Assembly (NCBI GenBank): GCA_027034005.1
Contig: JALVJU010000285.1
Coordinates: forward strand, 1 to 36,451
Length of the DNA stretch: 36,451 nt
Direction of reading: 5' to 3'
Source: Marinilabiliaceae bacterium
Lineage (GTDB): Bacteria > Bacteroidota > Bacteroidia > Bacteroidales > Marinilabiliaceae
Shown piece after piece: positions 16,634 through 19,579 of the stretch; position 1 is the first letter of the stretch; the number at the start of each line of letters is the position of its first letter. Position numbers and translations under genes: made by a program. Under the pieces are notes generated by a model. The model was given only the letters and a program-made list of their open reading frames with translations. It made no database searches and was not told where the DNA came from.

Positions 16634-16700
16634 TGTCTGCTTTTTATTTTTCTTTAACCCCTTTCATTCGCAAGTTATTTATTTTTTCTAATTAAATCAC

Positions 16701-16853
16701 TTGCGGATTAAGGTAAGCCCTGTCTGACTGCGAAGCCAGGCAGGCCCGATTTAGAAAATCACAGGTTAAAGTGAGTGCAACGAAACTGTAACCTGTTGAT
16801 TTTCTTATATCGATCCGCAATAAAAATTTTTTATTGCGGATTTAGGGTAACCA
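16701..16853. repeat. Three hairpins in the tgt-lptF/G gap
   Basis: Three separate inverted repeats fill this gap. 16717-16747 holds a CCTGTCTG / CCAGGCAGG palindrome of a family found twice more in the window. 16754-16804 holds GAAAATCACAGGTTA with TAACCTGTTGATTTTC, about 15 paired bases with one bulge. 16814-16840 is TCCGCAATAAAAA, T, TTTTTATTGCGGA with two exact 13-base arms. The direct repeats TTGCGGATTAAGGTAA (16701) and TTGCGGATTTAGGGTAACC (16835) flank the block. No gene is seen in 16634-16921. Confidence 0.75.
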
Positions 16854-16921: not shown

Positions 16922-18052
16922 TCATAAACGCTGTGATACCTGTTTCACCATTGAATTCTTCCACGAAAGGAAGTCCTCTTCAATAATGTGCTTTCTGGCT
17001 TCGCCTACCAACCACAGATAAAAACTGAGGTTATGTATCGAAGCTATCTGTGCCGCCAGCAGCTCTTTCGACACAAAAAGATGACGAAGGTATGCTTTTG
17101 TGTAATGCGAATCAACAAAGGAAACGCCATCCGGATCAACGGGGGAAAAATCATCTTTCCACTTATTGTTCTTCATGTTCAGAATTCCTTTACTTGTAAA
17201 AAGCATCCCGTTACGGCCGTTGCGCGTAGGCATGACACAATCGAACATATCAACCCCCAGGGCTATCGCTTCAAGTATGTTTTCAGGCGTTCCCACTCCC
17301 ATAAGGTACCTTGGCTTCTCTTTTGGCAGAATGCCGTTCACCAGTTCTATCATCTCGTACATGACCTCTGCCGGTTCGCCAACAGCAAGCCCCCCGATCG
17401 CATTTCCTTCGCAGTCCTGGTCTGAAATGAATTCTGCAGACTTTGACCGCAGGTCCTTGAACACACTTCCCTGAACTATGGGGAAGTATGCCTGCGAATG
17501 GCCATAAAGCGGTTCTGTTTCCCGAAACCTTTTCACACCCCTTTTCAACCAGTTATGCGTAAGGCCCATGGAATTTTTGGCATATTTATAATCGGCCGTT
17601 GAAGGCGGGCACTCATCAAAGGCCATCATGATGTCGGCACCGATGATGCGCTGGATATCTACCACATTCTCAGCAGTAAAAAAATGTTTCGACCCGTCAA
17701 TGTGTGAACGAAACTCCGCTCCTTGCTCGTTCAGTTTACGTATTTTGCTCAGAGAAAAAACCTGGAACCCGCCGCTATCGGTAAGTATCGGCCTGTCCCA
17801 TCCGTTAAACTTATGCAATCCTCCAGCAGCTTTAATGATATCCATGCCCGGCCTCAGATAAAGATGATAAGTGTTCCCCAGAATTATCTGTGCCTTGATG
17901 TCATCCTTCAGATCACGAAAATGCACCCCCTTTACAGAACCAACCGTCCCTACCGGCATAAATATGGGCGTTTGTATCTTACCATGATCGGTAGTTATCT
18001 CTCCGGCTCTTGCCGAACTGTTTTTATCTGTATGCTCTAAAACAAATTTCAT
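16922..18052 (-). CDS. tgt: tRNA-guanine transglycosylase (queuine tRNA-ribosyltransferase)
   Basis: This 376-residue enzyme replaces guanine-34 with preQ1 in the anticodon of tRNAs for Asn, Asp, His and Tyr. The TIM-barrel motifs are all present: TDSGGFQVFSL (Asp92), MMAFDECPP (Asp146), the base-binding GGLAVGEP, and the nucleophile region GVDMFDCVMPTRNGRNG (Asp268/Asp271). The C-terminal zinc site is unusual: in E. coli the ligands are three Cys and a His, but here the Cys positions read Gly309, Ser311 and Asp314 (DGVSFVDSHY), while His340 in SIHNLSFYL is kept. I recall this form in Bacteroidota Tgt. It has its own TAnnTTTG promoter box and is followed by lptF/G. Confidence 0.97.
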   Translation of the reverse strand: MKFVLEHTDKNSSARAGEITTDHGKIQTPIFMPVGTVGSVKGVHFRDLKDDIKAQIILGNTYHLYLRPGMDIIKAAGGLHKFNGWDRPILTDSGGFQVFSLSKIRKLNEQGAEFRSHIDGSKHFFTAENVVDIQRIIGADIMMAFDECPPSTADYKYAKNSMGLTHNWLKRGVKRFRETEPLYGHSQAYFPIVQGSVFKDLRSKSAEFISDQDCEGNAIGGLAVGEPAEVMYEMIELVNGILPKEKPRYLMGVGTPENILEAIALGVDMFDCVMPTRNGRNGMLFTSKGILNMKNNKWKDDFSPVDPDGVSFVDSHYTKAYLRHLFVSKELLAAQIASIHNLSFYLWLVGEARKHIIEEDFLSWKNSMVKQVSQRL

Positions 18053-18086: not shown

Positions 18087-18128
18087 CAAAAGCAATGTCA
18101 TTAATACGATTGACTGCAAAAAGATTAC

Positions 18129-18333
18129 ACCTTAACTCCGCAAGGGTGTTTCGTAGCGAAAGCTCCAAAAGTATGCCAGTATTGGAAAGCCTGTCTGCCT
18201 GCGCAGCCAGGCAGGCGCAGCGAAAAAGCCTCGCAGGCGTAGCCATAACTACGATGAGAAGCTTCAAGTGAGCATTTTCAATAATGGTGTGACTTTGGAG
18301 GTTGCAGCAGAAAGACTCTTGTGGAATTAAGGT
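18129..18333. repeat. Long imperfect inverted repeat with nested palindrome
   Basis: The 60-base arm 18129-18188 starts with ACCTTAACTCCGCAAGGGTG. It is matched by the reverse complement of 18274-18333, which starts ACCTTAATTCCACAAGAGTC; overall identity is about two thirds by eye. The 85-base centre holds the palindrome CCTGTCTGCCTGCGCAGCCA (18190-18215 region) and a GTAGCCATAACTACG stretch. It lies between divergent tgt and a glycosyltransferase gene. Plus- and minus-strand frames here are short and not gene-like. No target site duplication was recognised. Confidence 0.65.
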
Positions 18334-18429
18334 TACATTAACCTTCAGCATGACAACAGTTACAAAACAAAAGTCAATTTATTATCACATATTTTATCGT
18401 AAAAAATTTTTTACACATTAAAAATATCT

Positions 18430-18460: not shown

Positions 18461-19579
18461 TTGAACCAGGAAACAATATACATCTTATCTGCCATATTTA
18501 TCTTTTCATGGGTATTCCAAACCTTTCATTATTTATATATCCTCGGCGCTTTCAATCGTTATAAACCATTGGAAAGGCTACAAAAGCTTCCGCCCGTTTC
18601 AGTTGTTATCTGTGCCAAGAACGAAGATTCCAACCTGAAACAATTCCTTCCCAAAGTGCTGGAACAGGATTATCCCGAATTTCAGGTCGTAGTAGTAAAT
18701 GATACATCCACAGATGACACGGAGATGGTTCTGGCCGAAATGAAAGAGAAATACAAGAACCTCTACTACACCTCTATTCCTGTCGACAAGAAATTTTTTC
18801 ACGGCAAAAAGCTGGCTCTTACAATCGGCATAAAGGCCGCCAAACACGAGCATCTTGTTCTTACCGATGCCGATTGCTATCCTGTTTCGGATAAATGGCT
18901 GCAGTACATGGCAGGCTCTTTCAGCGACACAAAAAAGATCGTGCTTGGGTACGGCGGATATGAAAAGCAAAAAGGACTGCTGAACCTTATGATACGTTTT
19001 GAGACATTCTGGAATGCAGTACAGTATTTCGGCTTTGCACTTACAGTAAAACCCTTTATGGGTGTGGGCAGGAATATTGCTTACGAAAAAGAGGTTTTCA
19101 CAAACAGCTCTCAGTTCAGGAATAACCTGACTGTCGCATCAGGCGATGATGACCTTTTCATCATTGAAGCAGGGAACAAAAAGAACACAATCATTTGTGC
19201 CGAACCGAAAAGCCACACGATGTCTGTTCCTCCAAAATCAAGGGCGGAACTGAAGATACAAAAATCGAGGCATCTTACCTCTTCGGTACACTATCCGTTC
19301 TTCATAAAAACATGGTTGTTTTTCGAATTTTTAACAAGGCAATTATTTTGGCTGTTAACTATTTGTTCGATATTTTTTTCTATTTTTGCTCCAATTGCAG
19401 CAGGTCTGTTTGCTGTTCTGATATTTACCAAATTGATGGTAATGGGCAAAGCGGCAAAGAAACTCAGGCAAAAGCAACTGTTTTGGGCATTATTGCTGTT
19501 TGATTGGTACATGCCAATATGGATAGGAATATTGTGGATTAGTAATTTATTGAGACCAAAAGGAATTAAATGGAAGTAA
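18461..19579 (+). CDS. Membrane-bound family 2 glycosyltransferase
   Basis: This 372-residue protein has an N-terminal membrane helix (about 5-28), a GT-A catalytic domain and two to three C-terminal membrane helices (about 285-370). Catalytic marks are VVICAKNEDSNLK at the start, VVNDTSTDD (nucleotide binding), LTDADCYP (DxD at Asp136/Asp138), ASGDDDLFI (catalytic acid region) and KSRHL (position of the QxxRW-like motif). It may make or modify a surface glycan or glycolipid. The start is a TTG at 18461, with the MNQETIYILSA segment directly leading into the first helix, so I keep it. Its last 10 bases overlap the next gene, an ECF sigma factor. Confidence 0.88.
   Translation: MNQETIYILSAIFIFSWVFQTFHYLYILGAFNRYKPLERLQKLPPVSVVICAKNEDSNLKQFLPKVLEQDYPEFQVVVVNDTSTDDTEMVLAEMKEKYKNLYYTSIPVDKKFFHGKKLALTIGIKAAKHEHLVLTDADCYPVSDKWLQYMAGSFSDTKKIVLGYGGYEKQKGLLNLMIRFETFWNAVQYFGFALTVKPFMGVGRNIAYEKEVFTNSSQFRNNLTVASGDDDLFIIEAGNKKNTIICAEPKSHTMSVPPKSRAELKIQKSRHLTSSVHYPFFIKTWLFFEFLTRQLFWLLTICSIFFSIFAPIAAGLFAVLIFTKLMVMGKAAKKLRQKQLFWALLLFDWYMPIWIGILWISNLLRPKGIKWK

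Follow-up and report, generated by a model that had tools for sequence, protein, structure and literature searches.

The imperfect inverted repeat that separates the divergent tgt and glycosyltransferase genes in a 36,451-nucleotide stretch of Marinilabiliaceae DNA (the whole of the analysed sequence, hereafter the window) is, with a probability of about 0.92, a copy of a MITE family, termed family A, which would have been mobilised in trans by an IS1380 transposase; this copy later gained a nested palindrome. Family A is a new MITE family, tied to IS1380 by the ends and the target length that both have in common, and an open-access literature search on IS1380 with MITE returned no title or abstract describing an IS1380-linked MITE family. 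As expected of a MITE, its copies are short, transposase-free and numerous, carry terminal inverted repeats and are bordered by a duplication of a constant 5 bp.

The window element, its copies and its modules

The window copy occupies positions 18130-18332 on the plus strand (203 bp) and consists of a 177-bp core hairpin, whose sequence is 94% identical to the family A consensus, and a nested 26-bp palindrome. Its left terminal inverted repeat, CCTTAACTCCGCAAG (18130-18144, plus strand; family form CCTTAAATCCGCAAG), is also found at the ends of IS1380-family elements, and the right one reads CCTTAATTCCACAAG on the minus strand (18318-18332). The element is flanked by perfectly matching target-site duplications, TTACA, at 18125-18129 and 18333-18337; position 18129 on the left and positions 18333-18337 on the right are part of this duplication and lie outside the element. 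The original prediction had described a roughly 205-base inverted repeat, and such a repeat is indeed present, with exact bounds of 18130-18332; complementarity is 83% between its outer arms (18129-18152/18310-18333) and 72% between its inner arms (18160-18188/18275-18303). The neighbouring genes had also been named correctly: tgt, for queuine tRNA-ribosyltransferase (16922-18052, minus strand; PF01702, E 5.9e-154), lies with its start codon 77 bp away from the element, and the gene for a family-2 glycosyltransferase (18461-19579, plus strand; PF00535, E 8.6e-20) begins 128 bp past it.

The two levels of symmetry seen in the original prediction arise because a 26-bp palindrome, GCCTGTCTGCCTGCGCAGCCAGGCAG (18189-18214), sits in the 177-bp hairpin, inserted after core base 59. 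Together with the next GC, it forms the strong central palindrome of 28 bp (18189-18216; 88%) that had been pointed out, and it accounts for the suspected old insertion, as it is missing at the same position in the 177-bp copies and is dispersed elsewhere in the genome. Relative to its sister copies, the palindrome is thus an insertion.

Family A is represented by at least about 25 dispersed copies in the genome from which the window comes, a 3.93-Mb MAG of 702 contigs that is 86.8% complete, and the suggested search for copies elsewhere in the genome therefore gave a positive result. Among 99 relatives, the family was detected only in the same-genus genome G003, as one copy, with zero copies genome-wide in the same-genus genomes G001 and G002. 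About seven copies are present in the MAG Bacteroidetes bacterium Dive100_bin10.60 (G111), and an exact-pattern scan of genome contigs for the family A end, which may omit records close to the own genome and from which wider relatives may escape, returned this MAG (two contigs, with one copy in common) and one chance match within a gene, a Chlorobiota hit (L143) that was rejected as a family A copy. The copies are mostly 172-277 bp long, within the range of about 50-600 bp usual for MITEs, and share no conserved frame.

Without their insertions, the copies have a length of 177 bp, and most of them share 91-96% identity with the consensus. Their length differences correspond to exact modules: one of 20 bp inserted at core position 32, and others of 26, 27, 53 or 80 bp at position 59, the latter representing one to three palindromes. 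Both module sites read GAAA/GC. Module-free copies also occur (L008, L031, L032 and L033), and the window copy carries one 26-bp module, whose palindrome also occurs at dozens of genome sites, alone or within other palindromes. Three kinds of GC-rich palindromes (CCTG...CAGG) were observed among dispersed loci (L247-L266), often nested in one another and frequently at CAGG/CGGG. Palindromes of the nested type also lie within degenerate CCATAGAACCATTTAACCATAGAACC arrays, another repeat (L251, L256 and L259, at G000:C172, C549 and C639).

Both sides of family A copies end in CCTTAAWTCCGCAAG, forming the terminal inverted repeats, and the 5-bp duplication lies directly outside CCTTAA...TTAAGG, the ends being paired in all copies. 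When copies with degenerate ends were excluded, perfect 5-bp duplications were found around 22 of 39 copies, compared with a mean of 1.3 and a maximum of 7 for shuffled flanks, and no enrichment was detected at 3, 4 or 7 bp in the same 39 copies. The check for target-site duplications suggested earlier thus gave a positive result, both for TTACA around the window element and for the family, in which perfect duplications were distributed as 9/20 for the family A copies of the own genome and G003, 5/5 for the intact G111 copies, and 8/14 for a second family, B. Most of the 11 imperfect cases in the first of these sets match at 4 of 5 positions.

Family B belongs to the same terminal-repeat class and has a copy in the window (16660-16847, plus strand), where its neighbours are tgt and an lptF/lptG-type gene; a nested palindrome occupies 16718-16745, and a TAACC target duplication lies at 16655-16659 and 16848-16852. 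It comprises three hairpins (a unit of 54 bp, a middle one and a third), and at least about 30 related places exist in the own genome. A solo element of about 54 bp, CCTTATATCCGCAAG...CTTGCGGATTTGGG (L238; G000:C341, from 1295), bears TTATC duplications on both sides and may be the minimal version of this class of transposon in the own genome. One locus (L072; G000:C566:5922-6138) is a chimera, in which palindromes connect a family A left end with the right-hand portion of family B.

IS1380-family elements as the candidate mover

When 393 genomes of the order were searched with the C-terminal portion of a degenerate IS1380-type pseudogene from G003, 27 of them yielded relatives; two intact relatives that were scanned were assigned to the IS1380 family by NCBIfam (NF033539, E 1.7e-99 and 5.9e-73). 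The IS1380-family elements span 1.59-1.75 kb, their ends read CCTTAAATCCGCAAC, CCTTATATCCGCAG, CCTCAAATCCGCAG and similar sequences, and six of them are surrounded by perfect 5-bp duplications. A transposase of the NF033539/PF13701 type lies between such ends at L178-L180, L182, L186-L188 and L203, and the MITE has its terminal sequence, CCTTAWATCCGCAA, in common with intact elements of the IS1380 family from the same order. In G003, the ends of a multi-copy element, CCTTATATCCGCAAC and CCTTAAATCCGCAAG, are joined to the IS1380 pseudogene, and its right end, CCTTAAATCCGCAAG, is identical to the MITE end. The ends and 5-bp duplications that these intact elements share with family A thus make it likely that an IS1380 transposase mobilised the family.

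The multi-copy IS1380 element is represented in the G003 assembly by degenerate copies only. Its ends cluster near contig ends (C45, C58, C81, C113, C117, C213 and others), and the ends of multi-copy elements gather at contig ends in short-read assemblies.

In the own assembly (86.8% complete, 702 contigs), we detected no such IS1380 transposase, and all 16 exact terminal matches belong to MITEs. The autonomous partner may have been lost from the own genome or may lie in its unassembled part. Solo ends in the own genome were rejected as an autonomous partner, being MITE fragments, chimeras or chance matches, and the DDE_Tnp_1 (PF01609) transposases of the genus were rejected because their ends do not match. 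We propose that the IS1380 transposase would recognise the approximately 15-bp end CCTTAAATCCGCAAG and, acting in trans, would excise or copy the 177-bp hairpin, which would insert into AT-rich intergenic DNA and create the 5-bp duplication. The copies later gained small GC-rich palindromes, 20, 26 or 27 bp in length, at the GAAA/GC positions.

The hairpin and its possible constraint

The region folds as RNA at -89.1 kcal/mol, whereas its shuffles fold at -60.1 +/- 4.5 kcal/mol (z -6.4), and the core without the palindrome gave a z of -7.1. The original prediction, which was to fall if the genome held no similar copy and the fold did not exceed shuffled controls, therefore stands on both counts. 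We then compared the cores from the two MAGs, the own genome and G111, which align end to end. Eight stem pairs were found to have changed on both sides between the two lineages with pairing kept, and 92.9% of cells in the structure remain paired. The covariation score of 0.207 lay above every control (0.132 +/- 0.006 when shuffled and 0.04-0.08 with strands slid), in a test that covers two main lineages only and whose controls leave some relatedness in. When the register is selected without G-U pairs, consensus G-U states on the plus strand still outnumber A-C states by 7:1 and 8:0 in the two lineages, and the fold energies are -79/-82 kcal/mol for the plus strand versus -62/-48 kcal/mol for the minus strand.

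These observations suggest, with less confidence than the transposon assignment, that the hairpin may be constrained as a transcribed plus-strand structure in the lineage that propagates. Within single copies, recent changes showed a G-U to A-C ratio of 34:24 (p 0.24), which is not significant, so a neutral mutational strand bias is unsupported as the source of the G-U excess, and constraint on single copies is equally unsupported. Because the consensuses hold G-U over A-C while single copies do not, any constraint would act on the lineage that keeps transposing and not on each dead copy. According to gene contexts based on simple calling of ORFs no shorter than 90 aa, 25 family A copies comprise 16 tandem-sense, 2 tandem-antisense, 7 divergent and 0 convergent settings. 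The sense bias of 16:2 in tandem contexts is significant (binomial p 0.0013); convergent gaps make up about 10% of the background in a small sample, and the absence of convergent copies is weak evidence by itself. The window copy belongs to the divergent class and is uninformative for orientation.

How the hairpin is maintained can be read in two alternative ways, both within the MITE explanation. With slightly better than even odds, it is a DNA hairpin devoid of an RNA role, whose arms would be kept by replication template switching on quasi-palindromes or by a need for fold-back in transposition; the long arms throughout, the conserved ends and the drift of single copies without significant strand asymmetry are all consistent with this, but it predicts neither the single-strand excess of G-U relative to A-C seen in the two lineage consensuses nor the 16:2 sense orientation. 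These are the very data that point to the other reading, together with the eight compensated pairs, the covariation score, the more stable plus-strand fold and the lack of convergent copies: family A would be mainly a structured RNA, either a cis-acting leader or a stable small RNA, spreading on MITE ends, with its plus-strand transcript selected for the host or for the element. We nevertheless consider this unlikely, since single copies look neutral, the region has no Rfam match near threshold, the sense bias is absent from the tandem contexts of family B (4:10), and quasi-palindrome correction at replication can create an appearance of compensation but not of the G-U bias. No intrinsic terminator was found in the region. 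Of the two options offered by the original prediction, a MITE or a structured RNA, the former is supported by the copies, ends, duplications and IS1380-type ends, and the latter need not compete with it, the covariation and G-U asymmetry suggesting that the hairpin has additionally evolved as a plus-strand RNA.

A still more doubtful form of the idea is that an IS1380-moved family has been selected at the transcript level, with its strand-specific hairpin kept, its copies settling in sense beside genes, and extra palindromes admitted at only two internal-loop positions. If true, such a strand-specific RNA constraint would provide a clean natural test of RNA-level selection on bacterial MITEs, and this possible constraint is the part of the finding most worth pursuit. 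That the element is a chance quasi-palindrome or the remnant of a degraded gene has a negligible probability: single ORFs of 68 and 100 aa do overlap it, but the multiple copies, which refute a chance quasi-palindrome, the exact duplications and the core fold argue against this, as do indels between the lineages that are not multiples of three and break the frame. We therefore retain the assignment of the window element to an IS1380-linked MITE family.

Comparison with known repeat systems

Family A shows short palindromes building up as modules inside a mobile hairpin, and its closest counterparts are found among IS1380 insertion sequences and several classes of intergenic repeats. The IS1380 insertion sequences resemble family A in their CC-starting ends, which in relatives of the own genome are near-identical to those of family A over 14-15 bp, and in their 5-bp duplications, which have been published for IS1247 (PMC3281130). 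They are about 1.6-1.75 kb long with a transposase, whereas family A lacks one, and no relation was seen between the interiors.

RUP of Streptococcus pneumoniae, linked to IS630-Spn1, is likewise an intergenic repeat, of about 107 bp, tied to an insertion sequence by its ends and target (PMC2229807), but differs from family A in IS family, target (TA) and sequence. The nested palindromes of 20-28 bp are short, GC-rich and dispersed like REP palindromes (PMC3733652); the latter bear GTAG/CGTC tags, whereas no such tag was seen by eye at the palindrome borders in 20 dispersed copies. Correia/NEMIS elements of Neisseria also exist as short and long forms that differ by an internal block (PMC2229807), although these measure 107/155 bp with a 50-bp block, in contrast to the several GC palindromes (20, 26 and 27 bp), two sites and 5-bp duplications of family A. 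ERIC and BOX form long RNA-like hairpins in intergenic DNA as family A does (PMC3049150, PMC2229807), but have no known sequence relation to it and no IS1380 link. Transcript hairpin and RNase III effects have been proposed for Correia/NEMIS (PMC2229807) and orientation-dependent effects on transcripts have been reported for ERIC (PMC3049150, PMC2229807), and a transcript effect of family A would thus not lack precedent.
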